Assembly (NCBI RefSeq): GCF_014529625.1
Contig: NZ_CP076039.1
Coordinates: 2,046,001-2,110,000, forward strand
DNA: 64,000 nucleotides
Direction: 5' to 3'
DNA from: Candidatus Pelagisphaera phototrophica
GTDB taxonomy: Bacteria; Verrucomicrobiota; Verrucomicrobiia; Opitutales; Opitutaceae
Shown here: positions 36,850-57,187 of the stretch, piece after piece
Position numbering within the stretch: the stretch's first letter is position 1
Layout of the letters: each line of letters begins with the position of its first letter
Program-made: the position numbers and the translations under genes
Notes under the pieces: generated by a model
What the model was told of the DNA's origin: nothing
The model's input: the letters and a program-made list of their open reading frames with translations, nothing else
Databases searched by the model: none

Positions 36850-37448
36850 AGGGGAGTTTTTAAGATACAGGATGAGTAACGGAGTGGAGTTTGGCTTCGT
36901 TTGAAGTTAAACGGGACCGAGATGTAATATGAAACATCCATTGGGGATCTACTATTCGAGGGAGTTGACGTTTAAGCGGTTGGGCAAAGATGGCAAATTG
37001 TATTTACGTTAAAAATAAGCCGCTCAATGGACACCAAGCCCTAAGCAGAGGACTTGCTTTGTGCCAAAACTGCAAGCCTTCCTTGTCCTTGTCGTTCCTG
37101 AACGGCTCCAATGGGCCGACGTGCCGAATTCTGCTTGGCAGGTCCTGTGAATAGGCCTGTTTTGGGATTCAATAGCATGAGCGTGTTTGCTTCTTTGGCG
37201 ACTAGACTTCCTGAACCTAAATCTCCTAAAGCAACTTTTGAGCGGTCCAAACGACCAAGTAGAGACAGTCTTTTGAGTATTGGAGCGACTACGAAATACT
37301 CGAGTGAATATGGCGAAACTGCTTCCATACGATGAGGCGAGGCGCCAGTTTAAGGCCCACGGACGTTTTTTTGACTGGACCAAGAGCTCTGTTGTGCTGT
37401 TTTTGGCGGCATAAGTCCTTTAAACGCAAAATAAATACCTTCTCAAAA
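36850..37448. other. Long intergenic region before the sulfatase locus
   Basis: 600 bases. A 95-codon minus-strand frame (37041-37328) has fair composition (LLGRLDRSKVALGDLGSGSL) but no family I know and no start signal. No promoter could be assigned with confidence. Confidence 0.35.
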
Positions 37449-38984: not shown

Positions 38985-39127
38985 GGGTGGTTAGATACTA
39001 AGAGTAGTGGGCTATCTCCGAGAGCTCATTTATTTTTTCATCCTCAGGGTGGGTGATCGGAGTTCACCCGCATACCGTTTGCACCTTCGCGCTTGCGTCG
39101 GAGGCCAAGTTTTAGCTGAATTATTAA

Positions 39128-40474: not shown

Positions 40475-40506
40475 CATAATGATTCTGACCTATAGATTCA
40501 ACTACA

Positions 40507-40567
40507 GCAGAATAGGCATTTTGCTTGTTACTCTCATTTAATAATAGGCAGGATGCCTGTTCTGCTT
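40507..40567 (+). other. Long-arm hairpin between two sulfatase genes
   Basis: 14-bp arms (40507-40520 and 40554-40567, AGCAGAATAGGCAT against ATGCCTGTTCTGCT, one G-T pair) around a 33-base loop, ending 15 bases before the next start codon. Possible leader structure or mRNA-processing site; the T stretch after it is too short for a terminator. Confidence 0.5.
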
Positions 40568-40582
40568 TAACATACCATTCAA

Positions 40583-42013
40583 GTGATTAGATCCTTAAGT
40601 TTTTTAAACCGTCGAACGCGAACAATTACCCCGTTCTTTTTCCTTATCGGTATAATGTATCCATTATTTGGTGTAGAAAAAATCGAGAACGTTGTATTTA
40701 TAATATCAGACGACTTGAAGGCCAGCGTTTTGGGTAGCTATGGAGATGAGATTTGCCACACGCCGAATATTGACCGCTTGGCAGAGGAGGGCGTGGTATT
40801 CGATCGGGTTTATTGTCAGGGGACATCTTGCGGGCCGTCGCGTCAGTCCTTTATGCACAGTCGCTATCAGGGCGCCGCGAAGGTGAATTTGGGAAAGCAC
40901 TTTATCGACAATGGGGTTTTCAGTGCCCGCATTGGAAAGATTTACCACATGAAAGTTCCAGGCGACATCATCGCGGGCACCGATGGACTGGATGTCGAAA
41001 GTACTTGGAACGAACGTTACAATTCCCCCGGTCTGGAAGCGCACACACCGGGAGATTATGCGTGTCTCAATCTTGACATATTCACTACCGATCTCGCCGG
41101 TCGCTACTCTACGGCAATGCCGCATCGCTGGTTTGTGACTGTCAGCTATGACGGGGATGGCTCGGACCAACCCGACTACAAGACCGCAAGCAAGACCATT
41201 GAGGTAATACGTCAGCGCAAGGACGAGCCATTCTTCATCGCCACTGGTTTTGTTCGTCCCCACTATCCCATGGTGGCTCCTAAGCGATACTTCGACATGT
41301 ACCCAATCGAAGACATTACGTTACCCTATGTTCCCGATGACGACCACGACGACATCCCGCCGCTCGGTTTTCCTAAAGTCGTTTCCACCAAAGATCCGAT
41401 CGGCAAATATCCGGACAATCAGAAGCGCATGTGGGCGGGTTACTACGCGACCGTCACCTACATGGACGAACAAGTCGGAAGAATTCTAGATGAGCTCGAT
41501 CGGCAGGGCTTGCGAGACAAGACCGCCGTCGTATTCACCAGCGATCATGGGTACCATTTGGGAGAACATCATTTCTGGCAGAAAAGCAACCTTCACGAAG
41601 ATGCGCTTCGAGTGCCGTTGATCATATCGAGTCCTGGAGTAAAGTCGGGGCGATCGACCGCAATCACAGAACTGATGGATATCTATCCAACCCTTTCGGA
41701 GCTAGCCGGATTTGAGGATCCCGAAAGCGTGCAGGGTAAGAGCCTCGTTCCCGTACTGCAGGATAACTCAGCCCGTGTAAGGGAGGCCGCGCTTACCATC
41801 GATCGATCTGGTTATGCCCTGCGGTCTGAGCGTTGGTCCTATATTCGCTACAACGACGATACTGAGGAATTGTATGACATGCAGTCGGACCCGGGCCAAC
41901 TCACAAATCTCGCGATCAATCCTGAGCGTGAAGACGAATTGAAAACATGGCGCTCAAAACTGGATTCTAGGCTGAAGGGTGCCGGTATCACACGAAAGTT
42001 AAAGAAAGGCTAG
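40583..42013 (+). CDS. Secreted sulfatase, iduronate-2-sulfatase-like
   Basis: 476 aa from GTG 40583, with a signal-like hydrophobic stretch TITPFFFLIGIMYPLFG. Motifs: VVFIISDDLKASVLGSYGDE, CGPSRQSFMHSR (CxPxR type, with the Gly typical of iduronate-2-sulfatase relatives), GFVRPHYPMVAPKRYFDMYP, VVFTSDHGYHLGEHHFWQKS and RVPLIISSPG. The SDHG-YHLGEH-W pattern marks the same branch (S1_7-like). It differs clearly from the neighbouring sulfatases, so the locus probably attacks more than one sulfate position. Confidence 0.92.
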   Translation: MIRSLSFLNRRTRTITPFFFLIGIMYPLFGVEKIENVVFIISDDLKASVLGSYGDEICHTPNIDRLAEEGVVFDRVYCQGTSCGPSRQSFMHSRYQGAAKVNLGKHFIDNGVFSARIGKIYHMKVPGDIIAGTDGLDVESTWNERYNSPGLEAHTPGDYACLNLDIFTTDLAGRYSTAMPHRWFVTVSYDGDGSDQPDYKTASKTIEVIRQRKDEPFFIATGFVRPHYPMVAPKRYFDMYPIEDITLPYVPDDDHDDIPPLGFPKVVSTKDPIGKYPDNQKRMWAGYYATVTYMDEQVGRILDELDRQGLRDKTAVVFTSDHGYHLGEHHFWQKSNLHEDALRVPLIISSPGVKSGRSTAITELMDIYPTLSELAGFEDPESVQGKSLVPVLQDNSARVREAALTIDRSGYALRSERWSYIRYNDDTEELYDMQSDPGQLTNLAINPEREDELKTWRSKLDSRLKGAGITRKLKKG

Positions 42014-42033
42014 TGTCCTCCGTGGTTAAAGCT

Positions 42034-42086
42034 GTAGGAGCGGTTTTACACCGCGATAAAAAGGAATCGCGGAATAAACCCGCTCC
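42034..42086. repeat. REP-like double palindrome
   Basis: GTAGGAGCGG at the left with nested arms GGAGCGG/CCGCTCC (42037-42043, 42080-42086) and CCGCGAT/ATCGCGG (42051-42057, 42066-42072). The GTAGGAGCGG...CCGCGA form is that of REP elements moved by RAYT (TnpA-REP) transposases. It lies just after a sulfatase stop, as REPs often do. Only one copy is in this window. Confidence 0.65.
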
Positions 42087-42280
42087 AAAGAGTTGCGGCC
42101 TTATTCGCAGATTACCCGTAGGTAAAGTACTTGTATGCAAGACAATGAGCTTTTCGAATGGAGCTATGCCGTAATGAAAAGGAATAGGGACAAATCGGAA
42201 AAATAATAATGTGAATTTGACGGTGGTAACGGGGGGCATATTATGAAAAAGCTTGGTCATTAAGTCAAAATTTAGGATAA

Positions 42281-43609
42281 ATGAAATTATACATCGTGAT
42301 CAGTTCCGCATTTCTGGCGTTTCTAAACCTAGCCATCGCAAGCGACTCTCCGCCCAATATTCTTCTGATTATGGCAGACGATGTTGGATACGAGTGTTTC
42401 AGTAGCTACGGAAGCAAAGAGTATTCAACTCCTCGGCTGGATGCCTTAGCAGCAGAAGGAATACGGTTTGAGAACTGTCATTCCACTCCCTTGTGCACTC
42501 CCAGTCGGGTCAATTTGATGTCTGGCAAATCAAACGTATTCAATTACTTCGATTTTGGAGTCTATCCAAAGGGTGAGCCGACCTTTGCTAATCATTTCAA
42601 AAATCAGGGTTACGCAACCGCCGTAGCCGGCAAGTGGCAGCTCCTCCTAGATGACAAGGGCATTTCTCCCCAGGAAGCGGGTTTCGACTCTTATCTTTTA
42701 TGGAACACCCCCAACACAGAACGAGCCCGATATTGGAATCCCTCCTTGGAGCAAAATGGAGAGATTCTCGATTTGCCGGAAGGAGCTTACGGTCCTGACA
42801 TTTGTGCGAGCTTCCTCGAAGATTTTATCGAAGAGCAAGCCGGTTCGAATACGCCGTTTCTCGCTTATTACCCTATGATCCTGCCGCATAATCCCTTTCC
42901 ACCGGCTCCCAATAGTAGCGACCTAAACAGCAAGGACGATAAGGCCAACTTCATCGACATGGTTAACTACCTGGATTCCCTGGTGGGTCGTTTGGTTGAT
43001 GCGCTTGAGGAATCTGGAGTAATGGAGAACACGCTAGTGATATTTACGAGCGACAATGGAACGAATGCGGATCTAACGTCGATCTTCGATGGAGCTCCAC
43101 TCCAAGGCGGTAAAGGGTACACTAAAGATCATGGCACCCACGTTCCGCTCATTGTAAATTGGCCCGGAAGGATTCCTGGAAATCAAGTAAGCGATAACTT
43201 GATCGCATTTTCCGATTTTTTCCCTACCATAGTTGATGCGGCCGGAATGGCGCCAAAGAAAATTTCCGATGGAGATGGAATCAGTTTCTGGCCCCATTGT
43301 CTTGGCCAAGAGGGGACTGAGAGAAAGTGGGTTTATGGATACTATTTCCCACGACCCTACGCGGAAAGCTTCGACAATAAATATCATCATTGGGAAGTGC
43401 GCTACGCACGGGACAAACGATACAAACTGTACGGCAACGGGGACCTTTACGATACGCAGGAAGACGTTCTTGAAAAGAGAGTGCTTGATCCGGAAAGATC
43501 CAGTCGTGCCGCCAAACGAGCCCGTAAGTCACTTCAAGCCATCTTGGATTCATATCCGGATCAGGGGAGGGGAGTCGACTACTCACGAGTGGTCGGTGAA
43601 CGTCGGTAG
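42281..43609 (+). CDS. Secreted sulfatase (paralogue of the 39128 gene)
   Basis: 442 aa with signal peptide (VISSAFLAFLNLAIA). Motifs: PNILLIMADDVGYECFSSYG, CTPSRVNLMSG (intact CxPxR), AVAGKWQLLL, YYPMILPHNPFPPA, VIFTSDNGTNAD and GTHVPLIVNWPG. The start has AGGAT close before it. It is the intact relative of the CTSSR sulfatase two genes upstream and provides the reference for what that gene has lost. Confidence 0.94.
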   Translation: MKLYIVISSAFLAFLNLAIASDSPPNILLIMADDVGYECFSSYGSKEYSTPRLDALAAEGIRFENCHSTPLCTPSRVNLMSGKSNVFNYFDFGVYPKGEPTFANHFKNQGYATAVAGKWQLLLDDKGISPQEAGFDSYLLWNTPNTERARYWNPSLEQNGEILDLPEGAYGPDICASFLEDFIEEQAGSNTPFLAYYPMILPHNPFPPAPNSSDLNSKDDKANFIDMVNYLDSLVGRLVDALEESGVMENTLVIFTSDNGTNADLTSIFDGAPLQGGKGYTKDHGTHVPLIVNWPGRIPGNQVSDNLIAFSDFFPTIVDAAGMAPKKISDGDGISFWPHCLGQEGTERKWVYGYYFPRPYAESFDNKYHHWEVRYARDKRYKLYGNGDLYDTQEDVLEKRVLDPERSSRAAKRARKSLQAILDSYPDQGRGVDYSRVVGERR

Positions 43610-43820: not shown

Positions 43821-44573
43821 ATGATAACTTCTGCCCCCCAAAAATCGTTCAAGGATTTCCTTAAGGACGTCGACCCCGTACGGCGCGGGCTGGGGCTCTA
43901 CGACCATCTTTCGGATATCTGCTACTTTGTGAAGGACCAGACAGGGCGTTTTGTTCTAGCCAATGAGGCATTGGTTCTCCTTCTTGGGTGTTCCCGCGTG
44001 TCGGAAGTTCTGGGCAAGACCGATTTCGATTTGGTGCCCCGATATCTCGCGGACAACTACTTCAAAGATGATCAACAAGTGCTCTTTTATGGGCAGGAAG
44101 TAGTCAACAAGGTCGAGTTGGTGACGCATAACGACTTGTCGGTCTACTGGTACACCACGACCAAGGTACCGATTTACTCGAAAGACGGTTCCATCATCGG
44201 CCTGGAAGGAGTTACACGGGAATTTAAGGCGGCAAGCAGTGCCTTGGGTCCGTACCCAGAACTTTTTAAGGTCATAGATTTTGTCGAGAAAAACTATTCC
44301 AAGAAGGTCAGTGTTGCCGACTTGGCGAAGCGAGCGAATTTATCGGTGAGAACGTTTGAAAGGCAATTCAAACGTCGTTTTAACCTGAGCCCGATCGCCT
44401 ACCTGAAAAAAGTCCGAATCAATGCCGCCTGCTGTGAGTTGATCCATGGCAACCACACCATTGCCCAGATAGCCCAGGACTGTGGATTTTGCGACCAGAG
44501 CTATCTGACCAAGGAATTCGCCCGCTTAATGCGAATCACTCCGCAAGCTTATCGAGACGCCCATGCCCTCTAG
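43821..44573 (+). CDS. PAS-AraC transcriptional regulator
   Basis: 250 aa. A single PAS sensor domain at about residues 20-140 (FVKDQTGRFVLANEALVLLL, VLGKTDFDLVP, GSIIGLEGVTREF) is followed by a two-motif AraC DNA-binding domain at about 150-250 (VSVADLAKRANLSVRTFERQ, FKRRFNLSPIAYLKKVRINA, HTIAQIAQDCGFCDQSYLTK). There is no signal peptide or membrane segment. It sits in the centre of the sulfatase locus and probably controls it in response to a small ligand or redox signal. Confidence 0.92.
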   Translation: MITSAPQKSFKDFLKDVDPVRRGLGLYDHLSDICYFVKDQTGRFVLANEALVLLLGCSRVSEVLGKTDFDLVPRYLADNYFKDDQQVLFYGQEVVNKVELVTHNDLSVYWYTTTKVPIYSKDGSIIGLEGVTREFKAASSALGPYPELFKVIDFVEKNYSKKVSVADLAKRANLSVRTFERQFKRRFNLSPIAYLKKVRINAACCELIHGNHTIAQIAQDCGFCDQSYLTKEFARLMRITPQAYRDAHAL

Positions 44574-44771: not shown

Positions 44772-47700
44772 ATGCTGCCTAGAATCATCTTATCAGTTTT
44801 TGTTGGCCTTCTCAGTTGGAATGCATCGGCAACCTCATTGCCTCTCGATGTCGAAGAGGGCGAACGCATCGTCATCATTGGAAACGGGCTAGGTGAGCGC
44901 ATGCTCTACTTTCCTCATTTCGAAACGGACCTGCATCGCCAGTTCCCCAACAAGGCGCTTATCGTTCGCAATCTCAGCAAACCGGGTGATACGCCTGGCT
45001 TCCGACCTCATCCTTCGCGGGAAACACAGTGGGCGTTTCCAGGCGCGGAGAAGTTTCACCCCGGGCGCCAGACTCACTTGGGGATTGGTCATCATCCTTC
45101 TCCCGACGAGTGGCTGAAAGAATTGAAAGCCGATACCATAATCGCATTTTTTGGCTACAACGAATCCTTCGATGGACTCGACAAGGTTGAGAACTTTCAC
45201 GACGAGCTAGATGCGTTTGTACTGCACTCCTTGAAGCAGAAATACAATGGGCAGTCAGCACCGCAACTTGTGCTCGTATCTCCCATTGCATTCGAGGATC
45301 TCTCAGCCAAACAGGATCTACCAGACGGCAAAGCAGAAAATATCCACCTCGCTGCCTATGCGGATGCGGTTAAGCGTGTGGCTGAAGCGCGAAATGTTGG
45401 TTTTATCGATTTGTTCAATCCAACGTTGAAACTTTATACAAAAGAGAGGAACCCACAAACGATAAACGGTTTTGCGCTCAATGACGAAGGCTACCGCAAT
45501 CTCTCAAAGACTCTCATCGGCTCGCTCTATGGGGAGTTCAAACCTCAGGAAATGGTCTCCCGCGATGCGATGTATGCAGCGGTGGAGGACAAGAATTGGT
45601 ACTGGAACAACGATTACCAAATTCTGAATGGTGTTCACGTCTACGGACGCCGCTACAAGCCCTACGGCAATGTAAACTATCCAGAAGAGATCGAGAAGAT
45701 CCGACAAATGACTGAATTGCGTGACGGAAAGATTCACGATATCGCCTTGGGCACTCCGGCCAGCAAGTCTGTTGACGATAACGCAACCCGTCCGCTTACC
45801 GAAGTTAAGACGAACTACAATCGGCCGATCGAGTTTCTCGATGTAGACAAAGCAATCGATCAGTTCACCCTTCCAGAAGGCTACAAAATCGACTTGTTCG
45901 CCTCGGAAGCAGAATTTCCTGATCTTCGCAATCCCGTCCAGATGACCTTCGATAATCAAGGTCGCCTCTGGGTCGCAGTCATTCCGTCATACCCTCACTA
46001 CCGACCAGGGGGCGAACTGCCCAACGACAAGCTTCTTATATTTGAGGATACCAACAATGACGGTCGAGCAGACGTACAGAAGGTCTTTGCAGACGGGCTA
46101 CATATGCCAATCGGTTTCGAACTCGCTCCCGAAGGCGTTTACGTGGCGACCCAGCCCAACCTTTCTCTTCTGGTGGATGACAATGGAGACGACCGTGCCG
46201 ATCGTATGGAGATTCTCGTGCATGGATTCGATTCCCACGACACCCACCATTCGATATCCGCCTTTCTAGCTGATGCCTCCGGTGGAATCTACATGAACGA
46301 AGGGCGATTCCTTCACTCGGCAGTCGAAACGCCTTACGGCCCAGAGTACATGACGGATGGCGGTTTGTGGCGTTTCGATCCGAAGAACTGGAAACTCGAG
46401 CGTTTCATGCAGGTAGACGTATCCAATCCTTGGGGTGTTGCTATCGACGATTTCGGCCAAACCTTTCTCTCTGACGCTTCAGGAGGAGCCAATTGGTGGT
46501 CTTTGCCATTGTCCGCGAAAATCCCACACGGACAGGAAATCGAAAAACTGGCTCAATTTACGACTCACCGTGTGCGCCCCACTTCGGGAACCGAATTCGT
46601 TTCTTCGCGACACTTTCCGGAAGACACTCAGGGAGACTTTCTTATCAACAACACGATCGGCTTCTTGGGCACGAAGCACCACAGTATCGTAGAAGATGGC
46701 GCGGGATTCACGGGTGAGCTGAAGCAGGATTTAATTATGTCGACCGATTCGAATTTCCGACCGGTAGATATGGAGTTCGCCCCCGATGGATCTCTCTATA
46801 TTGTTGACTGGCACAACCCGCTAATTGGGCATATGCAACACAGTGCTCGCGATCCTAATCGCGACTCCGATCACGGTAGAATCTACAGGGTTACCTATCC
46901 ATCACGACCCCTTGTAACACCCGTGAAGGTGGCCGGTGCTTCGATTAACCAACTGCTCGAAAATCTGAAAGAACACGAATATCGCACTCGTTATCGGACT
47001 CGTCGTGAGCTTAGAGGACATCCTGCGAATAAGGTGATTCCATCTGTTAAGAAATGGGTGCGAGGACTGGATAAGCGCGATTCGATATATGGCCGCAATC
47101 TTCTGGAGGCACTTTGGGCAACCTGGGGTCAAAACCAAGTAGATCAGGGGATTCTTGAGCTCTGTCTCAATCATGAGGATCACAAGGTTAGGTCTGGAGC
47201 GGTTCGTGTTTTGCGCTACATTTACCATCAGATTCCCGACAGTCATGATCTTTTTATGAAAGCCGCTTTAGATGAGCATCCTCGTGTTCGTTTGGAAGCG
47301 ATTGTTGCGGCTTCTTGGCAGGACAACGAGGAAGGGGCGGAAATCGCTTTGGAAGGTCTCAAGAAACCCGTAACCAAATGGATGGGACGGGCCTACGAAG
47401 CCGTCTTTACCACTCTCGAAGATGATGCCAAGGTCCTCAATGAGTCGGGAAAACTAAATCTCGCGGGCAACCATTCTGCCAAGGAATTTCTAGCAGGGAA
47501 TTTTGAATTCTACGACCGGAAGCAAGGCGAAGTGAGGGTTGAGCAGATCAATCTTTCAAAGGATGACCTTGAGCTCTACCGACTGGGCGAAGAGGTCTAT
47601 CGTCGAGACGCCCACTGCAAGACTTGTCATGCTGCCGATGGTAAAGGGACGATCCCTAACATATACCCGCCGTTGAACGCGAACGAGTGGGTCATGGGCG

Positions 47701-49025
47701 AGGACGAGCGACTGATCAAGATAGTCTTGAAGGGACTTTGGGGAGCGATCGAAGTGGCCGGAAAGACTTACGACCCTACCACGGGAGTCCCGCCGATGAC
47801 CGGTTTCGGCGGAATGCTAAATGACGAGGAAGTCGCGGGAGTACTCACTTATGTGAGAGCCAAATTTGGTGACAAGAAAGTACTCGCCAAAGCCATTAAA
47901 CCCGAAAAAGTAGCCGCGGTTCGGGAAGCGACCAAAGATCGGCAAAATTTCTACATGGTCGATGAAATACTAAAGGAGCATCCCTTCCCCGAAGGAAAGG
48001 TATCAGGTTCTGCTGCGAAGCAATGGCAATCCTATCCTGGCAAGTCTGGATCAGGGAAGGGCAAAAGCATTGTCCTTATCTCAGGAGACGAAGAGTACCG
48101 TTCCGAAGAGGCGATGTCGCAACTCGGTAAGATTCTTTCACAGCGCCATGGTTTCGACTGCACCGTCCTCTATGCACAGCATCCGGGTGAGCCAGGAGTG
48201 ATCGATCCCAATTTTGGAAATAACCTTCCTGGTCTCGAAGCGTTGCAAGCCGCTGATCTGATGATCATCGCTACCCGTTTCCGAGATTTGCCAAACAATC
48301 AGATGAGAGAGATCGACGACTATTTGAAGTTGGGAAAACCCGTGATTGGATTGCGAACCGCAACCCACGCCTTCAATATCGAAGACAAGAATGCTAGATA
48401 CGCACATTATAGTTTCAACTACAACGGTGAAAAGAAAGCCTGGAAAAACGGATTCGGCGAACTCGTTCTAGGTTCGACTTGGGTGAGCCATCACGGATGG
48501 CACAAGTACGAAAGTACTCGTGGTATTATAGTGGGTAGCCACGAAATCGGCAATGGTATTGGCAAAGGCGACGTATGGGGTCCCTCCGACGTTTACGGGG
48601 TTCCTTTGCCACTTCCTGGTGACAGCAAACCAATCGTATTGGGAGAGGTTGTGGCAGGAATGGGCAAGCTCCATCCCGCGATTGGTCCAGGACCTTATGA
48701 CAGAGTTCCAAGTTACGGGAAAGAAGAGGGCTTCCATAAGAACGACCCAATGATGCCGGTCGCATGGACAAAGAGCTACCAAATCCCCGGGGGCGAAAAA
48801 GGCAAAGTCTTTACGACGACTATGGGCTCGTCCAACGATCTGGAAGCAGAGGGCACTCGACGCATTATCGTGAATGGAGTCCTTTGGGCCGTGGACATTC
48901 CTGTTCCTGCAGATGGAGCGAATGTCGACCTTGTGGGCGACTTTAAACCCACAATGTACGGATTCCAGAGAGAGGAAGGTTACTGGCAGAAGAAGGATCT
49001 TAGAGTGACCGATTTCGATCTTTAA
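44772..49025 (+). CDS. Giant SGNH - dehydrogenase propeller - HEAT - cytochrome c - ThuA fusion
   Basis: 1417 aa with signal peptide (ILSVFVGLLSWNASA). Domains: SGNH-hydrolase-like, about 25-280 (VIIGNGLGERM, FFGYNESF); six-blade dehydrogenase propeller of the Pirellula/Verrucomicrobium type, about 364-710 (FASEAEFPDLRNPVQMTFDN, GRLWVAVIPSYPHY, DNDGR-like calcium loops); HEAT repeats, about 730-880; cytochrome c with CKTCH at residue 949 and PPMTGFGG Met ligand; ThuA-like domain, about 1097-1400 (VLISGDEEYRSEEAMSQLGK). In the SGNH domain the nucleophile Ser is absent (GNGL) and the terminal His is Ala (NGFALNDEGY), so it may be inactive. ATG 44772 is chosen over TTG 44715. The propeller presumably oxidises a sugar-like substrate and passes electrons to the haem. 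Confidence 0.9.
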   Translation: MLPRIILSVFVGLLSWNASATSLPLDVEEGERIVIIGNGLGERMLYFPHFETDLHRQFPNKALIVRNLSKPGDTPGFRPHPSRETQWAFPGAEKFHPGRQTHLGIGHHPSPDEWLKELKADTIIAFFGYNESFDGLDKVENFHDELDAFVLHSLKQKYNGQSAPQLVLVSPIAFEDLSAKQDLPDGKAENIHLAAYADAVKRVAEARNVGFIDLFNPTLKLYTKERNPQTINGFALNDEGYRNLSKTLIGSLYGEFKPQEMVSRDAMYAAVEDKNWYWNNDYQILNGVHVYGRRYKPYGNVNYPEEIEKIRQMTELRDGKIHDIALGTPASKSVDDNATRPLTEVKTNYNRPIEFLDVDKAIDQFTLPEGYKIDLFASEAEFPDLRNPVQMTFDNQGRLWVAVIPSYPHYRPGGELPNDKLLIFEDTNNDGRADVQKVFADGLHMPIGFELAPEGVYVATQPNLSLLVDDNGDDRADRMEILVHGFDSHDTHHSISAFLADASGGIYMNEGRFLHSAVETPYGPEYMTDGGLWRFDPKNWKLERFMQVDVSNPWGVAIDDFGQTFLSDASGGANWWSLPLSAKIPHGQEIEKLAQFTTHRVRPTSGTEFVSSRHFPEDTQGDFLINNTIGFLGTKHHSIVEDGAGFTGELKQDLIMSTDSNFRPVDMEFAPDGSLYIVDWHNPLIGHMQHSARDPNRDSDHGRIYRVTYPSRPLVTPVKVAGASINQLLENLKEHEYRTRYRTRRELRGHPANKVIPSVKKWVRGLDKRDSIYGRNLLEALWATWGQNQVDQGILELCLNHEDHKVRSGAVRVLRYIYHQIPDSHDLFMKAALDEHPRVRLEAIVAASWQDNEEGAEIALEGLKKPVTKWMGRAYEAVFTTLEDDAKVLNESGKLNLAGNHSAKEFLAGNFEFYDRKQGEVRVEQINLSKDDLELYRLGEEVYRRDAHCKTCHAADGKGTIPNIYPPLNANEWVMGEDERLIKIVLKGLWGAIEVAGKTYDPTTGVPPMTGFGGMLNDEEVAGVLTYVRAKFGDKKVLAKAIKPEKVAAVREATKDRQNFYMVDEILKEHPFPEGKVSGSAAKQWQSYPGKSGSGKGKSIVLISGDEEYRSEEAMSQLGKILSQRHGFDCTVLYAQHPGEPGVIDPNFGNNLPGLEALQAADLMIIATRFRDLPNNQMREIDDYLKLGKPVIGLRTATHAFNIEDKNARYAHYSFNYNGEKKAWKNGFGELVLGSTWVSHHGWHKYESTRGIIVGSHEIGNGIGKGDVWGPSDVYGVPLPLPGDSKPIVLGEVVAGMGKLHPAIGPGPYDRVPSYGKEEGFHKNDPMMPVAWTKSYQIPGGEKGKVFTTTMGSSNDLEAEGTRRIIVNGVLWAVDIPVPADGANVDLVGDFKPTMYGFQREEGYWQKKDLRVTDFDL

Positions 49026-49081
49026 ACGCGGTACATTCAGCCAGTGCCATTTCTCGAAAACCGTCAAGTTCGCTTAGCAAA

Positions 49082-50734
49082 ATGAGATTTTACCAACTAG
49101 CTTTCGTGTTCGTAGCCTTATTCCCTGCGGTATTTAGCTCAAGTGCCAAAGATCGACCGAACATTCTTTTCATAATGTCTGATGATCACACGGCTCAGGC
49201 GATTGGGGCCTATGCGACCTTGCTCAAGGAACTGGATCCCACGCCAACCATCGATAAACTGGCGGAAGAGGGGATCCTCTTTGAAAATGCGTTCTGCACC
49301 AATTCAATCTGCACGCCGTCCCGAGCGAATATCATTACCGGTCTCTATAATCATAAAAACGGCGTATTTGACTTGGGCGGCAGCATTACGCCTGACAAGC
49401 AAACACTGCCTATCTTAATGCGTGAAGCGGGCTACCAAACGGCAGTCATCGGGAAATGGCACCTTAAAGAGGAACCGAATTTCGACTACTACAAAGTGCT
49501 GCCCGGTCAAGGAAAGTATTTTGACACAGAATTTCGGATACAAGGCGATCAGTCATGGCCCAAAAATGTCGTAACCCATAAGGGCGAGCATTCATCCGAT
49601 GCCATTACGGACTCCGCTTTAGACTGGTTTAAAAATCAGCGTGATCCCAGCAAGCCCTTCTTCGTTTGCCATCAGTACAAAGCCCCCCACGACTATTTTG
49701 AGAATGCCCCACGATATCAATCCTACCTAGCCGACGACACGATTCCAGAACCGGAAACTCTTTACGATGTACCGAACACTTTTGGCTCGCTGGCCACCCG
49801 CGGATGGCAAGACGAGCTTATGCCTCACATTGGCACCTCAATTGGAAAACGAAATCCTCGGCGATCGTATGCCACTCACCTATTCGCCAAATTTCCGGAA
49901 GAATTTCCAGGCGACTACGATTCCGCATCGCTTAGCGAGGAAGAGACCACTCGCATCGCTTACCAAGGGTATCTGAAAAAATACCTTCGTTGCGTCAAAG
50001 GAGTCGACGACAACCTGAAGCGACTATTCGAATACCTTAAGGCGGAAGGCCTCTATGATAATACGGTTATCATTTATACAGGTGACCAGGGTTTCTGGCT
50101 GGGTGAAAAAGACTACCAAGATAAGCGATGGGCCTATGACGAATCGGCGCGCATGCCATTTATTGTGCGCTACCCCATAGAAATACCAGCTGGAATTCGA
50201 AGCGATGCTCTCATCGAAAACGTCGATTATCCCGCTCTCATGCTGGACTACGCAGGTGTGAAAATTCCCAAGGAGTACCAAGGAAAGTCCTTTCGCTCGA
50301 TCTGTGAAACCGGGAAAGAGCCAGCCAATTGGAAACCGGCGACCTATTACCGATACTGGATGCACATGGCCCATCACGATAATCCTGGAGAAATGGCGAT
50401 TCGCACTAAGACTCACAAGCTTATCTATTTCTACGGAGCGAACTACAAAGGGGAATATCAAACACCACCCGCATGGGAATTATATGATCTCATTGAAGAC
50501 CCACAGGAACTTCGAAATGTGTACTACGTTCCCAAGTACAAGAAGATCCGCGACGATCTGAAAGCTCAATTTGCTCAGCTTCGGAAAGATATCGGAGACG
50601 ATGGCTCTCACTATCCAGAATGTGAAGCAGTCGTGCAGGAGTTTTGGGATTACAGCGAAGCGGACCGACGCAAAGCGATAGAGATTTCCGCGAATTTCAA
50701 GAAGATCCGAGAGGCCGAACTGGCGAATGATTAG
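49082..50734 (+). CDS. Secreted sulfatase
   Basis: 550 aa with signal peptide (AFVFVALFPAVFSSSA). Motifs: RPNILFIMSDDHTAQAIGAY, CTPSRANIITG, VIGKWHLKEEPNFDYYKVLP, VIIYTGDQGFWLGEKDYQDK (the GDQG-FWLGEK form) and RMPFIVRYP. The C-terminal part, with PATYYRYWMHMAHHDNPGEM, is typical of the N-sulfoglucosamine/heparan-type branch. It begins 56 bases after the giant fusion gene and is probably co-transcribed with it. Confidence 0.94.
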   Translation: MRFYQLAFVFVALFPAVFSSSAKDRPNILFIMSDDHTAQAIGAYATLLKELDPTPTIDKLAEEGILFENAFCTNSICTPSRANIITGLYNHKNGVFDLGGSITPDKQTLPILMREAGYQTAVIGKWHLKEEPNFDYYKVLPGQGKYFDTEFRIQGDQSWPKNVVTHKGEHSSDAITDSALDWFKNQRDPSKPFFVCHQYKAPHDYFENAPRYQSYLADDTIPEPETLYDVPNTFGSLATRGWQDELMPHIGTSIGKRNPRRSYATHLFAKFPEEFPGDYDSASLSEEETTRIAYQGYLKKYLRCVKGVDDNLKRLFEYLKAEGLYDNTVIIYTGDQGFWLGEKDYQDKRWAYDESARMPFIVRYPIEIPAGIRSDALIENVDYPALMLDYAGVKIPKEYQGKSFRSICETGKEPANWKPATYYRYWMHMAHHDNPGEMAIRTKTHKLIYFYGANYKGEYQTPPAWELYDLIEDPQELRNVYYVPKYKKIRDDLKAQFAQLRKDIGDDGSHYPECEAVVQEFWDYSEADRRKAIEISANFKKIREAELAND

Positions 50735-50888
50735 GTTTTTCAATAGTCTCTACTACGGCGGGACACCATGGCGAATAGGCACTTCGAGGAGTGTACCCGA
50801 TTTCGGTTCAAGGGTAAGGCCAACGAACGGGCTATCCATATTACCTAATTAAGTCTCCCTTTGATGGGGACCATCAGGCTCGCCGACA

Positions 50889-51395
50889 CTATCTTTCAAG
50901 AACCGCATTGAACAATTCTATTGTCCGTTGAATATCCACTTGGACTGGCACATGTAGAAACGCGTATTTCGCTTCCATCTTCTCGGCTTCCCGACACATC
51001 AAGTACATAGAATAGTTGCACACATAGCCACCTGCATCGTAAGTGACAGTCGTTTCCTCCGTTGTAGGAATCTTCAAGGAAGCATACCGGAATTCAGGCC
51101 CATAACTTTCAATTGGCTTACCCTCAGAGGAGGCCGATTGACGCCAATTCCGGGCACGTCGCTCAATTCGGATCTTTCTCGCCCGAGGATGTTGCCCGAT
51201 TCCGATGATGACCTTGGGTTGATGCCTCTCCAACGCCTCTATGAACTGGTTAGGATCGAAACTAACGTCAAAAACGATCCCGTTTGCCAGTCTTAACCGA
51301 TTGACCTCCCGAATGATATCTGTGGTGACATTGTGGGTATACCTCTCGTAGGGACCAAAACCGTAGACGAGGGGATTCACCTGCACGATTGCCAT
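50889..51395 (-). CDS. Pyroglutamyl-peptidase I-like protein (peptidase C15)
   Basis: Cys peptidase that removes N-terminal pyroglutamate. 168 aa from ATG 51395, shorter than the usual 200-215. The catalytic set can be seen: Glu in ARKIRIERRARN, Cys in AGGYVCNYSMYLMC and His in YAFLHVPVQ. The normal N-terminal GFEPFGG-x-NPS segment is replaced by VNPLVYGFGPYERY, so the N-terminus is diverged. It is convergent with the sulfatase upstream and not clearly part of that set. Another possibility is a related amidohydrolase with the same fold. Confidence 0.8.
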   Translation of the reverse strand: MAIVQVNPLVYGFGPYERYTHNVTTDIIREVNRLRLANGIVFDVSFDPNQFIEALERHQPKVIIGIGQHPRARKIRIERRARNWRQSASSEGKPIESYGPEFRYASLKIPTTEETTVTYDAGGYVCNYSMYLMCREAEKMEAKYAFLHVPVQVDIQRTIELFNAVLER

Positions 51396-51784
51396 AGTAG
51401 GAGTCCGGTTTGCCCGGGCGATCAAAAAACTGAATTAATATCGTCGGGACGGATCAAGTCTCCTGCGAATTACATCACACCTCCTGACCTTCGAATCATG
51501 AAAACCGATAGAGAAACCGGAATAGCTTTTTAATGTTTGGTTTAAGTCGCTTTTCTTGTTTGGTTAATATTGCCAGCTGGTTGACTCGTGAAGTAGCAGG
51601 GCAGTCTTGGAATTGTCGATGAGCACGCCATGAAACCTGCCTACGCCTTATGGGCTGCAATTCCTATTCCGGCGGAGCCTGTGCCAATGTTGATAAGCTC
51701 GTAACTTCGATTCGTGTATGCAATAGAACGAACCAAGGCTGCAGAAGATTGGCGAAAAGTCGTCGGACTATCGACTGGGTGACT
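51396..51784. other. Intergenic region upstream of the pcp-like gene
   Basis: About 390 bases with no gene I can support. A plus-strand frame of 64 codons at 51650-51844 has no coding signs. Confidence 0.4.
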
Positions 51785-52004
51785 CTATTTCCCGCTTTTC
51801 TGAATGGGGCACTCAGCAAACGCCAGAAGCAGAATCAGGACTAGGTTCACGAAAGGGAAGATAATCAAGAGTCCAAGAGCGTCAAAATATCCCGTCCTTT
51901 TGAAAATTCTCCGGAGGGGGCCAAACGACGAATAATGCGACGGCGAGGATAGCAAAGACCTCTTGAACTCTGAGATAAGATATGAATGCGATCGATGTAT
52001 TCAT
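51785..52004 (-). pseudogene. Frameshifted small membrane protein
   Basis: An ATG at 52004 opens MNTSIAFISYLRVQEVFAIL and AVALFVVWPPPENF, then stops early. The other frame supplies LRRIFKRTGYFDALGLLIIF then PFVNLVLILLLAFAECPI and ends at TAG 51785. Joined near a C-rich run around 51914 they form a two-helix protein of about 72 aa with a basic R-R-x-x-x-R-x-G loop, a layout seen in small proteins of this phylum. No function known. Confidence 0.55.
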
Positions 52005-52048
52005 AAATATATTTTTGAAATAGCGACTCGATGACTTCGCTGGACGCT

Positions 52049-52675
52049 TTATTTCATCCGTGCTTGGATCATGGCCGCTAATTCGGGGAAACCTCTGGAT
52101 TGGGCGAACATTGCCGCGGTCTCACCATCGACATCTGCAGCGTTGGGATCGGCGTTGTTGTCCAGCAAATATTGCACGACGTCGCTATGACCTTCAGCAG
52201 CGGCAAACATTAAGGGTGTCCAGCTTTCGTGTGAATCGATATCGTTCACGCTGGCGCCGCGTCGGTGAAGGATTGTTATCAGTTTTAGATTGGGTCCTGT
52301 GCAGGCGAACATAAACGCGGTACGGTTGGTGCTGTCTCGCAAATCTAAGCGAGCTCCCGCTTCCAACAGCCTTTCAGCGATCTCAGTATGACCATTGAAA
52401 GCCGCAAGCATCAGAGGTGTTCGCCCATTTTCGTCGATTATATTGGGGTCGATTCCGGCCTCGAGAGCCAAGCTAATGGCTTCCACGTTTCCATTTAACG
52501 CAGAGTCCATGATGAACTCAATAGGGATAGGAGGTAGGGCGTCTTGGGGAGCTGAGGCCTTCTTAGAGGCTTGGGAAGCGGTCGTGCTTACAGAATTGGA
52601 GTCCGTTTTGGAATCACTGCAGCCAAAGAGCGCAAGTGCCAATAAGAAAGGGAAAAGCCAATGGGAGAACTTCAT
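52049..52675 (-). CDS. Ankyrin-repeat lipoprotein
   Basis: 208 aa from ATG 52675: lipoprotein signal with lipobox ALFGC (MKFSHWLFPFLLALALFGCS), a Ser/Thr/Ala-rich linker, then about four ankyrin repeats (NGNVEAISLALEAGIDPNII; NGRTPLMLAAFNGHTEIAER; DSTNRTAFMFACTGPNLKLI; SWTPLMFAAAEGHSDVVQYL). The frame extends upstream to 52795 but those residues do not look like a leader. A surface or periplasmic binding protein. It is divergent from the giant azurin-tailed protein, 127 bases apart, so the two may share a control region. Confidence 0.88.
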   Translation of the reverse strand: MKFSHWLFPFLLALALFGCSDSKTDSNSVSTTASQASKKASAPQDALPPIPIEFIMDSALNGNVEAISLALEAGIDPNIIDENGRTPLMLAAFNGHTEIAERLLEAGARLDLRDSTNRTAFMFACTGPNLKLITILHRRGASVNDIDSHESWTPLMFAAAEGHSDVVQYLLDNNADPNAADVDGETAAMFAQSRGFPELAAMIQARMK

Positions 52676-52802
52676 CTGGAACAAGAACTCGGGAATTTGA
52701 TTTAAAAGGCAAATGGAATATAAGCTACGCATCAGTGGGCCGTCTTGTCCTACCTTGAGTCGACGCTTGCAGTGGTGTGCCATTTTTTCTTCCAATAGAG
52801 CT

Positions 52803-55800
52803 ATGATACGAATAACAAAACGGATAACAGTAGCACTGTTGTCGCTACCTGTTGTTTCACTGCTTGAAGCAGATGTTAATGATCAAAGCATTGCGGCAGA
52901 GCACACGCATGCTCATGCAATGCGCAACACGATCGTGGCCCAGGCCCAGCCCGCTCCCAATAACTTCGACCCGGCGAAGAGGCGATCCGTCAAAGATGCC
53001 AAAAACGAAAAAACGGGCAAGCCTCCGCCAGAGCTGGACGCCAGTTTGGAGTCTTACGCGATCTATGGCGAAACCGCGCCTCGTCCACAGGCGACTGACC
53101 GCGTATCGACTTCACTCCCGCTCCGGCTAGAGGACAACAGCCGGATCGCTCTGGTCGGAAACACCCTGTTTGATCGCGATCGCCTGTTCGGATATTTTGA
53201 GTCGCTGATTCATCAAACCCACGCCTACAAGAAACTTAGAATCAGAACCCTGGCCTGGGCTGCGGATGAGGTGGATCTACAGCCGAGACCCGACAACTTT
53301 GGCGATCTCGACCAGCATCTGACGGCTCAAAAGGCCGACGTGATTTTCGCGGCCTTTGGGTACAACGAGTCTTTCGCCGGTATCGAAGCGATCCCTAGTT
53401 TCAAGTCCCGACTAAGAGCATTTGTTCGGCATACTACTAGTCACGCCTACAACGGTCGGTCCGCTCCTGAGCTGGTATTGGTTTCTCCCATCGCAAATGA
53501 GAATGTCGAGGGTGTCGCAGCGGCGGACCTGAACAACGATCGAATCGCCGCCTATACCCGGGCGATGGCGGAAGTCGCCCTGGAAGAAAGTGTTGGATTC
53601 ATCGATGTGTTCGAAAGTACGCACATTGCGATGGCTGATCCTCGTTCGGACCTAACCTTCAATGGGGCCCATCTCGTCGACGAGGGCTACCAAGTCTTCG
53701 GAAAGATTGCCTACGAGAAAACCTTTGGCGAAGAGCTGGCGCCTGAGGTGAACGAGCGGATACGAGAAGTCGTAGTGGAAAAGAACGAGCAGTTCTTCAA
53801 TCGCTACAGGCCTTTGAATACCTTTTACTACACCGGTGGTCGCAATAAGACCTATGGCTATCTCGATTTTCTGCCAGCCATGCGCAACTTTGACATAATG
53901 GTCGATAATCGCGACCAAAGGATCTGGGATTTGGCTGCGGGCAAGCAAGTGAACGAATCTATTGACGATTCCAATGTTCCGGAGATGCCCGAGACGCATC
54001 AGTCGCGTGGAGCAAACGAGTATCTCAGCCCCGAGGATGAGCTCGCTGCCTTCGACGTCGATCCACGCTTTGACGTAAATCTGTTTGCATCCGAAGAGAA
54101 GTTCCCCGATATCGCGTGCCCAATTCAAATGCGCTGGGATTCGAGGGGTCGCCTTTGGGTTAGTTGTTCCACGACTTATCCTCACGTTTATCCCGGCCAA
54201 AAGCCCAACGACAAGCTAGTCATTCTCGAAGACTTGGATGGCGATGGGAAAGCGGACAAGAGCACTGTATTTGCGGACGATTTGCATATACCGCTTAGCT
54301 TTGTATTGGGAAATGGGGGTGTCTACATATCAGAGGAGCCCGACCTTGTATTTTTGAAGGATACCGATGGAGACGGAAAAGCGGATTTCCGAAGGCGCAT
54401 TTTTACCGGATTTGGGACTGAGGACTCGCATCATGCGCTTCACGATTTTGTATGGACGCCCGATGGGGATCTGCTGTTTCGCGAGGCTATCTTCCACAAT
54501 TCCCAAGTGGAAACGGTTTACGGTCCGATACGGGCCAAAAACAGCTCCTGGTTTCGCTACCGGCCTTCAACGCATCGCCTAACTGCATTCGGAGCGTATC
54601 CAAATACCAACCCATGGGGAGTCACTTTCGATGACTGGGGGAACCATGTGGCGAGCCATCCCATTTTCGCTTCTGCCTTTCACGCCACCAATCCACCCTA
54701 TCCGGAACAGCATCCAAAGGCATCTGGCATCCCGGCTTATTCGGGAACCTGTGGACAGGAATTCATCGATTTCAGCTTTTGGCCGAAGGAGTTGCAGGGT
54801 GGGTATGTTAAGGCCCGATACAAGCCAAATAATCGAATCGAAATCCACCATTGGATTGAGAAAGAGGATTCATTTGTGGAAGAGTATCAAGGAGATCTCA
54901 TTTTTTCACGCAACCTCAGCTTTATTCCAGTGGATATTCGCTTTGGCCCACGAGGAGCACTGTATGTGTGCGACTGGTACAATCCTATCAAAGGTCATGC
55001 GCAGTATTCGTTGCGCGATGAGCGGAGGGACCGCAAATCAGGCCGGATTTGGAGAATTGTACCCAAAGGAGCGACCTTGCAGGATCCGCCGCGAATCCAC
55101 GCCGCCAGCATTGCTGAGCTATTGGAGCTTTTGAAGAGTCCCGAGTACCGCTACCGCTATTGGGCAAAACGCGAGTTGCGCGATCGGGAACATGGCGCGG
55201 TGAAAAGGGAACTAGATCGGTGGATCGCTCAATTAGATCCCGATGACACCCGACGGGATCATCACTTGCTGGAAGCCGTCTGGCTCTACCGCGGTATTGA
55301 TGAAAGCAATAGGGATATTCTTTCCGAACTGCTGGGTAGCGAGGATCACTTGGCCCGGGCCGCAGCGACTCGTCAGCTACGATACGGGTCATCTGAAACG
55401 GAAATTCAGTATTTACGAGAACGTGCCCAAGATGAAAGTGAGCTAGTTCGACTGGAGGCGGTTATTGCGGCCAGCTATATTGGAACTCCGGAAGCGGTAC
55501 AGGTAGCCATGCACGTAGCAAGGCAGCCCGCGGGTACCCATTTGAAGTATGCGGTGGCGACATCGCTCGGCTCGGAAAATTTGTCGCGCCATTGGAAAGG
55601 GGCAGAACAAGATTATCCCGTGGTGGGAGAGTTTCTAGATTCTTTCGAGAGGGATTCGAAGCTGCTCGAGGGTTCGACTACCCGAAATTCAACGGAATCA
55701 GCCTTCGACTCGCAAAAGGGGATCACCATTGTAGATATCTCCTGCCTGCCCGAGCGTATGATGTTTACGGTGACAGCGTTTACCGTGAAAGCCGGCAAGC

Positions 55801-56099
55801 CGGTTAAGTTGACTTTAGAGAACCCTACGGCGACCCCACACAATTTGGTAATTGTAGAACCGGGTGCCGCCGCAGAAGTAGGTATGGCGGGAAACCAAAT
55901 GGCGACGGATCCCAGTGGGGCTTCCAAGCATTTCGTCCCCGATTCGCCCAAAGTGCTTTTCGCGACAAAACTTTTAGATCCGGATACGAGCGAAACCCTG
56001 CGGTTCATCGCGCCGAAGGAATCTGGGGAGTATCCCTATATTTGCACATTTCCCGGTCACTGGGTCATCATGCGGGGTGTCATGACCGTGGAAAAATAG
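52803..56099 (+). CDS. Giant SGNH - dehydrogenase propeller - HEAT - azurin fusion
   Basis: 1098 aa from ATG 52803 with a hydrophobic leader (VALLSLPVVSLL). Domains: SGNH-like, about 110-330 (IALVGNTLFDRD, AAFGYNESFAG, NGAHLVDEGY with His kept but no Ser in block I); propeller of the same family as the 44772 gene, about 417-745 (FASEEKFPDIACPIQMRWDS, DTDGDGKADF); HEAT repeats, about 760-930; C-terminal type 1 copper domain, about 972-1098. Its ligands are His1013 (TPHNLV), Cys1081, His1086 and Met1090 in CTFPGHWVIM, matching azurin spacing exactly. Electron transfer to copper replaces the haem used by its paralogue. Confidence 0.9.
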   Translation: MIRITKRITVALLSLPVVSLLEADVNDQSIAAEHTHAHAMRNTIVAQAQPAPNNFDPAKRRSVKDAKNEKTGKPPPELDASLESYAIYGETAPRPQATDRVSTSLPLRLEDNSRIALVGNTLFDRDRLFGYFESLIHQTHAYKKLRIRTLAWAADEVDLQPRPDNFGDLDQHLTAQKADVIFAAFGYNESFAGIEAIPSFKSRLRAFVRHTTSHAYNGRSAPELVLVSPIANENVEGVAAADLNNDRIAAYTRAMAEVALEESVGFIDVFESTHIAMADPRSDLTFNGAHLVDEGYQVFGKIAYEKTFGEELAPEVNERIREVVVEKNEQFFNRYRPLNTFYYTGGRNKTYGYLDFLPAMRNFDIMVDNRDQRIWDLAAGKQVNESIDDSNVPEMPETHQSRGANEYLSPEDELAAFDVDPRFDVNLFASEEKFPDIACPIQMRWDSRGRLWVSCSTTYPHVYPGQKPNDKLVILEDLDGDGKADKSTVFADDLHIPLSFVLGNGGVYISEEPDLVFLKDTDGDGKADFRRRIFTGFGTEDSHHALHDFVWTPDGDLLFREAIFHNSQVETVYGPIRAKNSSWFRYRPSTHRLTAFGAYPNTNPWGVTFDDWGNHVASHPIFASAFHATNPPYPEQHPKASGIPAYSGTCGQEFIDFSFWPKELQGGYVKARYKPNNRIEIHHWIEKEDSFVEEYQGDLIFSRNLSFIPVDIRFGPRGALYVCDWYNPIKGHAQYSLRDERRDRKSGRIWRIVPKGATLQDPPRIHAASIAELLELLKSPEYRYRYWAKRELRDREHGAVKRELDRWIAQLDPDDTRRDHHLLEAVWLYRGIDESNRDILSELLGSEDHLARAAATRQLRYGSSETEIQYLRERAQDESELVRLEAVIAASYIGTPEAVQVAMHVARQPAGTHLKYAVATSLGSENLSRHWKGAEQDYPVVGEFLDSFERDSKLLEGSTTRNSTESAFDSQKGITIVDISCLPERMMFTVTAFTVKAGKPVKLTLENPTATPHNLVIVEPGAAAEVGMAGNQMATDPSGASKHFVPDSPKVLFATKLLDPDTSETLRFIAPKESGEYPYICTFPGHWVIMRGVMTVEK

Positions 56100-56326: not shown

Positions 56327-57187
56327 TTATTTCGCCCCACCATCCAAGCCCCACAAGACGGCGGCCTTTAGGAGGGACTGAATTTCTGGTGTAGCCATTT
56401 CTTCAACACCGCCTGGAGACATGTAGAACACGCGCTTTCCGTTTTGTTCGTTGGTCCATGCGATGGGGTGTGGCGGCGTTTCCTTGGTGTGCCTGGCACT
56501 CATGACGACGTTGATCTCCAGATCGATATCTTCGTACTTATAGAGTTTGTGGCCAACCAGGATAGGGCCCTTGAAGGAAAGGTTTTGTACGATAGGGTGA
56601 CCGGATGCGGAAGCTTCAATCCAGGCTTCAACTGCCAAGGGCGGAAGCCCTTTGATATCCCGATAATGTCCGGTGTAGTGAGCCCCTAGGACGTCGGTGT
56701 CAAAGGTGTTCCAGGAGTCGTGGCCAGCCGGTGGCTGGTATCCTGTTCCTTTTTCACGTGCCCCAAACGCATGGCTCGCCGTTCGAACGGCGATGACTGG
56801 TTTCCCTGACTCGATAAATTTCCGTATGGTCTCAAGTTCGTTCGACTTGGGAAATCGACGACGCGTACTGAGAACAAGAATATCGGCGGAATCCAGCAAT
56901 TCAAGCCCTTCGAAAGTATGGCAAAGTTGAGAATCGCGATTATCGGACTTGGCCTTAACAATAACGCTCGCGATGCCAAGTGGCTCGAGTTGGGACTTTG
57001 CGAATGCGGGCAGGGTTTCGGGGGTACCGTACTCGTGTTCGCCTAAAAGAAAAAGAGCCTTCTTGCCTGCGTAGATGGAATGAGTCTCGGTCGTTTGGGA
57101 GCAGGAAACGAGAGAGGGAGAAAGGAAAAGGATCGCCAGCGCTAGCAGGTGCTGTTTCTTCCGAAAGGGATGGTTTATGAAATCCAT
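56327..57187 (-). CDS. ThuA-domain lipoprotein
   Basis: 286 aa. Lipoprotein-like leader with lipobox LVSC (SLVSCSQ), then a single ThuA domain (KALFLLGEHEYGTPETLPAF, DILVLSTRRRFPKSNELETI, SGKPVIAVRTASHAFG, GHKLYKYEDIDLEINVVMSA, VFYMSPGGVEEM). ThuA proteins are class I glutamine-amidotransferase-like and linked to sugar (trehalose, glucoside) use. It is a stand-alone version of the ThuA domain that is fused to the C-terminus of the 44772 protein, and converges on the azurin-tailed gene. Confidence 0.9.
   Translation of the reverse strand: MDFINHPFRKKQHLLALAILFLSPSLVSCSQTTETHSIYAGKKALFLLGEHEYGTPETLPAFAKSQLEPLGIASVIVKAKSDNRDSQLCHTFEGLELLDSADILVLSTRRRFPKSNELETIRKFIESGKPVIAVRTASHAFGAREKGTGYQPPAGHDSWNTFDTDVLGAHYTGHYRDIKGLPPLAVEAWIEASASGHPIVQNLSFKGPILVGHKLYKYEDIDLEINVVMSARHTKETPPHPIAWTNEQNGKRVFYMSPGGVEEMATPEIQSLLKAAVLWGLDGGAK

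Follow-up and report, generated by a model that had tools for sequence, protein, structure and literature searches.

Do two large paralogous proteins that share a propeller core and end in different metal centres represent one enzyme with an exchangeable electron acceptor? This question is raised by two genes, here termed A and B, in a stretch of 64,000 nucleotides from Candidatus Pelagisphaera phototrophica (contig NZ_CP076039.1, positions 2,046,001 to 2,110,000; this whole stretch is called the window, and coordinates without a contig or locus name refer to it). An earlier sequence-only reading had suggested that both proteins carry out the same oxidation and deliver the electrons either to haem or to copper. 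The analysis described here points to a different picture. A and B are best understood as exported propeller proteins of the TIGR02604 family, typical of the Planctomycetes-Verrucomicrobia-Chlamydiae (PVC) bacteria, each of which would act as a periplasmic oxidoreductase on a sugar or sugar derivative from the breakdown of sulfated polysaccharides. A probability of about 50% is assigned to this reading, in which catalysis, cofactor and substrate are putative.

Architecture and kinship of A and B

Both open reading frames (ORFs) and the order of their domains could be confirmed as the sequence-only reading had described them. The features are as follows.

44772..49025 (+): protein A, 1417 amino acids; SGNH-like domain, propeller, HEAT repeats, cytochrome c, ThuA (ORF check, domain scans)
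44829..45761 (+): SGNH-like domain of A; GNGLGER replaces the GDS block, without the catalytic Ser
45831..46931 (+): TIGR02604/DUF7133 beta-propeller of A with the motifs HDTHH and FRPVD (domain scans, model)
46944..47516 (+): HEAT repeats of A (bounds by eye from the model)
47547..47891 (+): class-I-like cytochrome c domain of A; CKTCH at 47616-47630 (residues 949-953)
48102..48971 (+): C-terminal ThuA domain of A (domain scan)
52803..56099 (+): protein B, 1098 amino acids; SGNH-like domain, propeller, HEAT repeats, azurin (ORF check, domain scans, model)
53112..53942 (+): SGNH-like domain of B; GNTLFDR replaces the GDS block, without the catalytic Ser
54018..55097 (+): TIGR02604/DUF7133 beta-propeller of B with the motifs EDSHH and FIPVD (domain scans, model)
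55098..55667 (+): HEAT repeats of B (bounds by eye from the model)
55710..56096 (+): azurin/auracyanin-type cupredoxin of B (scans, model); first His at 55839-55841, CTFPGHWVIM at 56043-56072
56327..57187 (-): stand-alone ThuA gene, convergent with B, which itself is without ThuA (domain scan)

The propeller of A matched DUF7133 with 2e-67 (228.8 bits; cut-off 27) and TIGR02604 with 1.5e-64 (218.7 bits; cut-off 122.2), and that of B matched the same two families with 8e-65 (220.1 bits) and 2e-61 (208.3 bits), respectively. HEAT_2 was found in both proteins. The c-type cytochrome and the ThuA domain that had been claimed for the tail of A were recovered as well, with 2e-7 for Cytochrom_C and 2e-7 for ThuA, the latter just below its Pfam cut-off, as was the GDSL-like match of A (6e-6); in B, the GDSL-like match reached 8e-10. 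A hydrophobic signal-like stretch is visible by eye at the N-terminus of A. The AlphaFold2 models have a mean predicted local distance difference (pLDDT) score of 89.2 and a predicted template modelling (pTM) score of 0.87 for A, with partly low pLDDT in the cytochrome c stretch, and 91.6 and 0.88 for B. The CxxCH motif implied by the TIGR02604 family name 'PVC-type heme-binding CxxCH protein' is present in A (CKTCH) and absent in B, and as B carries an azurin and no haem here, this name does not fit B.

The azurin-type tail of B, with its CTFPGHxxxM loop, likewise held up. Copper-bind matched with 1.5e-7, and the copper-ligand motifs are HNLVI (residues 1013-1017) and CTFPGHWVIM (residues 1081-1090). 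With 33.5 bits the tail stays below the cut-off of the azurin equivalog TIGR02695 (105.1), and judging from these scores it would be an azurin-like domain and not an azurin orthologue. Its model superimposes on auracyanin A (2aan) with a Z of 19.6 and a root mean square deviation of 1.2 over 119 residues, which predicts a cupredoxin fold with the His/Cys/His/Met ligands in place and thereby a copper site. The fold, the four ligands and the loop are those of auracyanin and azurin; whereas these are free carriers, the azurin of B is the C-terminal part of an enzyme-like chain of more than 1000 amino acids.

For the N-terminal part, the label 'SGNH-like' is appropriate with regard to the fold (residues 44-322 of the B model match 7br2 with a Z of 20.9) but not with regard to the catalytic Ser of block I, which is present in only one of 60 aligned A- and B-type sequences; block V contains Asp in seven and His in 39 of these 60 (blocks placed by eye). 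This part is thus predicted not to be an active esterase of the usual kind. As a Phe-Gly-(Phe/Tyr)-Asn-Glu-Ser-Phe block is nearly invariant in it, a binding role appears likely.

The cores of A and B are 37% identical, and a search with B against its own genome retrieved A at an E-value of 6e-142, a similarity far beyond chance, by which the two proteins can be regarded as paralogues. From the comparison with their relatives they also appear to be old separate subfamilies. A profile scan of named public genomes with B and A gave at least 429 relatives, the best 80 of which were fetched as loci; all 80 are B-type, with hosts from the Verrucomicrobiota and Planctomycetota. The closest named B orthologue among the matches listed is L033, from an Opitutales metagenome-assembled genome (95% identical). 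Among 30 fetched A-type loci, the tail includes CxxCH in 29 and a copper motif in none; ThuA is N-terminal in 13, C-terminal in three (A and two congeners) and was not found in cis in 14. BLAST against the own genome showed the cytochrome of A to resemble the cytochrome tails of L021 and L032. The ThuA gene adjoins B both in the window and in the same-genus genome G307, and some B-type proteins (L146, L147, L168) carry an N-terminal ThuA.

Copper and haem in the relatives of B

The tails of ten of the 80 B loci are unreadable owing to contig ends. In 30 of the 70 readable ones, a CxxCH motif follows behind the azurin, the hosts being Planctomycetota (26), Verrucomicrobiota (three) and one unassigned organism. 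All three B tails tested exceeded the TIGR02603 cut-off of 68.15 bits (L059, 93.3; L056, 87.2; L110, 93.5), and by BLAST the tail of L059 is similar to the haem tails carried by seven other proteins of the window's genome. TIGR02603 did not match window A or B in the hidden Markov model (HMM) scan. By these matches, the haem family behind the B-type azurin is different from the cytochrome family of A. As 30 of 70 readable tails carry haem behind copper, and as this haem family is unlike that of A, copper and haem look serial. The first copper His was kept in 70 of 71 rows (66 by motif and four HNF/HNM rows by eye). A survey of 294 Planctomycetota genomes, which overlaps the 80-locus set, gave 16 with a match and 11 B-type proteins proper, namely nine with copper and haem (one of them from the query's own genome) and two with copper only (G599, and G621, in which the frame stops after the azurin).

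The main argument for a relay comes from a sister group, here called C-type, of which 14 loci were hand-chosen from the matches of the named-genome and Planctomycetota searches. Azurin and haem are part of the propeller chain in four of them and lie together in the next same-strand gene in two, the next-gene azurin of L184 being without the strict copper motif. Both C-type proteins tested by HMM were above the TIGR02603 cut-off (L183, second gene, 84.6; L187, 100.1). As azurin and haem can change between cis and trans without being separated, they appear to form one relay. Two-gene versions, with the propeller gene followed by a separate same-strand azurin-haem or haem gene, were seen at L183-L186 and L190-L193.

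As TIGR02603 haem lies behind the copper in the same chain in many B orthologues, the copper is best read as a relay toward this haem, an observed arrangement along which electrons would flow. Window B is without haem and would hand electrons from copper to a separate acceptor.

The history of the haem in the B family was traced with trees from which 13 of the 80 B loci were excluded because they were truncated, contained X or had a late start. The first core tree comprised 67 B rows, nine of the 30 A-type rows, window A and B, and L021; the second, 61 hand-chosen rows. On these trees, copper-and-haem versus copper-only tails require three to four changes. In an approximately unbiased (AU) test with 34 B and three C rows, six long- or deep-branch B rows being excluded, holding the 20 copper-and-haem B cores together against the 17 other rows was rejected (p-AU 7e-60; the group was named after the trees had been seen). 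In a tree of 11 B, 11 C and seven own-genome haem domains, a branch with support 94/96 has all the tested B domains on the same side. The core trees disagree with the tree of 39 azurins, in which the azurins of copper-and-haem proteins form, together with that of L093, one clade (100/99) nested in the copper-only ones. According to these trees, either the haem would be ancestral, with several later losses, or the tail of azurin and haem would have been transferred from one lineage to another. A late gain, with copper-only tails ancestral and haem plus azurin added in planctomycetes and passed on to Pedosphaera-type Verrucomicrobiota, would agree with the nested azurin clade and is compatible with the function proposed for B; it is possible but not favoured, as Pedosphaera groups with Verrucomicrobiota on the core trees, the single clade of copper-and-haem cores was rejected, and azurin plus haem also occurs on some C-type proteins. 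L093 itself (Pedosphaera sp. ARS72) is a B orthologue with a linker stub, no haem and Arg at the first copper His; it likely represents one haem loss, and its copper-haem relay may be decaying.

Exchange of the tail at a second locus

An exchange of haem and copper, as had been proposed for the pair of A and B, does find an example at another locus of the same genome, outside the window. L023 (G000:C1:303465-307184; L023:3466-7185) encodes a protein composed of DUF6807, propeller, HEAT repeats and azurin. Its orthologue in the congener G307 has the same architecture including the azurin (97% identical, full length), whereas the orthologues in the congener G286 (76%), in G160 of the same family (56%) and in G265 of the same class (55%) end in TIGR02603 haem with 131.7, 119.4 and 134.7 bits (L200, L201 and L202, respectively). 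Azurin and haem versions have the junction GPSF.[DE]FWG in common, and the identity between L023 and the G286 protein drops from 76.7% over the 1094 residues before it to 23.5% over the 119 residues after it. In a tree of ten rows (seven of seven inner branches starred), the L023 copper pair is nested among eight haem-linked rows, six with the haem in cis and two with an adjoining CxxCH gene. By this comparison, copper has replaced haem in the L023 protein. That the L023 azurin is a copy of the B azurin was rejected, as it groups with neither the B nor the C azurins and its long branch joins that of the outgroup.

In total, 11 proteins of this genome are above the TIGR02604 cut-off, eight with CxxCH in cis, one beside an upstream CxxCH gene and two with azurin. 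A propeller gene without a redox tail, L024:2373-5830 (G000:C1 about 1666372-1669829), overlaps an upstream CAACH gene of 407 amino acids, and what seems to be a broken copy, a short TIGR02604 fragment interrupted in frame by a TAG, is located at G000:C1:4033182-4033517. Azurin-like stretches within long frames (676-1130 amino acids) were seen at G307:C16:57813-58241, G348:C95:8788-9117, G372:C4:12816-13163 and G160:C14:42953-43321 and are candidates for further azurin fusions.

The proposed reaction, its rivals and its setting

The propellers of both models have 3a9g as a common nearest solved fold, a kinship seen via shared matches and not by direct superposition, and the propellers are in this respect related, as had been expected. 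The best VIA-align matches are 7cgz (Z 21.8) and 3a9g (21.6) for B, and 3a9g (27.3), AA12 6h7t (26.6), the pyranose dehydrogenase of Coprinopsis 6jt5 (25.4) and the soluble glucose dehydrogenase (sGDH) 1qbi (23.9) for A. It is the fold together with the fused redox tails and the sulfatase surroundings which points to periplasmic sugar oxidation. In the proposed sequence of steps, the SGNH-like domain, its nucleophile lost, would serve as a binding or scaffolding part, the propeller would oxidise the substrate, and electrons would leave via the C-terminal tail, i.e., the class-I-like cytochrome c in A and the azurin-type copper in B. ThuA, in cis in A and encoded next to B, would process the product.

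Several findings weigh against this reading. Folds of the lactonase/SMP-30/DFPase type follow closely behind in VIA-align (Z of about 20 for B, within 2 Z of its best match, and 23.7 for A), and the first propellers returned by Foldseek were the luciferin-regenerating enzyme for B (3.2e-6, just before 3a9g with 3.6e-6) and the designed Pizza6 propeller for A (1.1e-6, just before sGDH with 1.3e-6). The arginines for pyrroloquinoline quinone (PQQ) are incomplete: by motif alignment, not superposition, the site of the first has Arg in all 18 A-type rows and Ile in all 42 B-type rows, and that of the second is Val, Ala or Thr in all 60 and never Arg, leaving A without one and B without both. No PqqE match above the cut-off was obtained in the own genome, nor in 14 control genomes. 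With regard to the tails, 40 of the 70 readable B tails end in azurin alone, six of the 14 C-type loci have a next-gene haem without a detected azurin, and in two no tail was found. A CxxCH ORF lies just behind a copper-only B in only one (L055) of 37 copper-only loci with at least 1.5 kb downstream, so that haem is not needed nearby; a separate cytochrome gene as a rule beside copper-only B was rejected, L055 being joined, in the survey set, by the L146 locus described below. The idea of an operon partner conserved with B was rejected as well, since only sulfatases were numerous when the 80 loci were clustered; of the nine CxxCH neighbours in this clustering, the eight apart from that of L055 stand beside B genes that have haem (seven) or are cut (one). 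Finally, an A-type match above 850 bits is absent in ten of 16 named B genomes and present in six, these genomes having been chosen for their B. At L146:2-1471 (-), the next gene behind a copper-only B is MauG/MbnH-like and MbnP-like, with all matches below cut-off.

The close lactonase-type matches, the Foldseek order and the incomplete PQQ equipment would also fit a propeller that is a Ca-dependent lactonase or hydrolase of the SMP-30/DFPase type, or a binding domain, with the redox tail serving another step. This explanation appears unlikely, given that ten of the 11 own-genome family members above the cut-off carry a haem or copper tail in cis, that the best dehydrogenase match of the A model lies 3.6 Z above its best SMP-30 match, and that the propeller His/His and Asn, which align with the E. 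coli Asd motifs, are invariant in all 60 A- and B-type rows. The His, Asn and two Arg of these motifs are taken here to be the PQQ-binding residues. The hhalign comparison with E. coli Asd gave an E-value of 3.7e-5 and a probability of 71%; a sequence search of the PDB with the propeller profile returned mainly NHL-type propellers, and 2g8s at an E-value of 0.18. The link to quinoproteins drawn by the sequence-only reading is mixed: PQQ aldose and soluble glucose dehydrogenases together with AA12 (3a9g, 2g8s, 6h7t, 6jt5, 1qbi) are the best structural matches, but A and B are only 13-17% identical to them, and in view of the arginines and of PqqE the label 'quinoprotein' is doubtful for both. 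A PqqC search gave no match anywhere, controls included; PQQ could, however, be scavenged. The genome also contains two COX1 matches.

Far less probable still is the idea that A and B are interchangeable versions of the same oxidation, haem or copper being chosen by the supply of iron and copper. The shared domain order, the related cores and the conserved placement of the two genes, which in G307 as in the window lie on one strand and 5.6 kb apart as measured between matched stretches, would be in line with it. Yet the cores represent old separate subfamilies with a fixed Arg/Ile difference at the PQQ site, copper and haem occur together in B relatives, and the tails of the 11 own-genome proteins are unlike a metal-sparing switch. 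Co-occurrence gives it no support either: in 387 genomes of the window's phylum, A had 30 matches at E <= 1e-100, 28 of them above 850 bits, and B eight at E <= 1e-200, and all eight B genomes are among the 28 with A. Judging by these eight of eight and the six of 16 above, A and B neither replace each other nor always occur together. Of the swapped acceptors, what stands is a pair of paralogues with tails for different metals on a sugar-dehydrogenase-like propeller, while a haem-for-copper swap on one and the same enzyme was rejected for A and B, on account of the separate cores and of copper and haem occurring together, and appears instead at L023.

For the preferred reading, periplasmic oxidation of a sugar, the surroundings of the genes are informative. 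The most frequent neighbours are sulfatases, seen at 24 of 80 B loci, and five sulfatase genes surround A (37332-43609 and 49082-50734). ThuA is linked to 3-keto-sugars. The 3-ketoglycoside hydrolases described in PMC9007349 belong to another family (DUF1080). Planctomycete-specific cytochrome c (PSCyt) haem genes have been found near sulfatases, with suspected roles in carbohydrate use (PMC5615132); they resemble the A/B family in being PVC haem proteins often located near sulfatases, whereas the main text of that paper mentions azurin or copper 0 times. Other genes in the window are a PAS-AraC regulator just upstream of A (43821-44573), a gene for an Nramp-like metal transporter (35521-36849) that lies upstream of the run of sulfatases, and an ankyrin-repeat, lipoprotein-like gene that is divergent from B and starts near the B start (52049-52795, -).

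Fusions of a comparable kind are established elsewhere. The AA12 pyranose dehydrogenase likewise carries a fused cytochrome, and in caa3 oxidase subunit II and NirK-cytochrome c a cupredoxin is joined to c-type haem in one chain. The latter two have another catalytic part; in the haem-bearing B orthologues, the type-1 copper is preceded by a propeller resembling sugar dehydrogenases and followed by a TIGR02603 haem. By score, A and B belong with the TIGR02604/DUF7133 family, and the three copper-and-haem orthologues of B tested belong with TIGR02603 as well; A and B differ from these families in the nucleophile-less N-terminal SGNH-like domain of both and in the azurin of B. Among the papers listed from the open-access literature (titles and abstract openings, without preprints), no description of a fusion of azurin with a propeller or with haem was found for PVC bacteria, and likewise no papers on, or function assigned to, the TIGR02604/DUF7133 family names; one mention, in a supplementary table, was seen in PMC4807772. 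PMC8779525 counts one planctomycete azurin match and judges it to be contamination or wrong annotation. Of the 31 planctomycete B loci retrieved in this analysis, 27 contain an azurin motif, followed in 26 by CxxCH, and this bears on the view that Planctomycetes are without azurin.

It is tentatively proposed, with somewhat less confidence than the reading of A and B itself, that in PVC bacteria the electron outlet of a large family of propeller dehydrogenases can be exchanged like a cassette (class-I cytochrome, TIGR02603 haem, azurin, or azurin and haem in series), placed in cis or in the next gene; that haem was cleanly replaced by azurin at a fixed junction in this genus; and that a B-type protein would combine, in one chain, the oxidation or reduction of a sugar with a relay from copper to haem, using a cofactor other than classical PQQ. 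The family is numerous in this organism, and its B-type members are often found near sulfatases. The exchange of the L023 type and the natural copper-haem chains provide ready-made sets in which mainly the electron outlet differs, and which make the roles of copper and haem directly testable.

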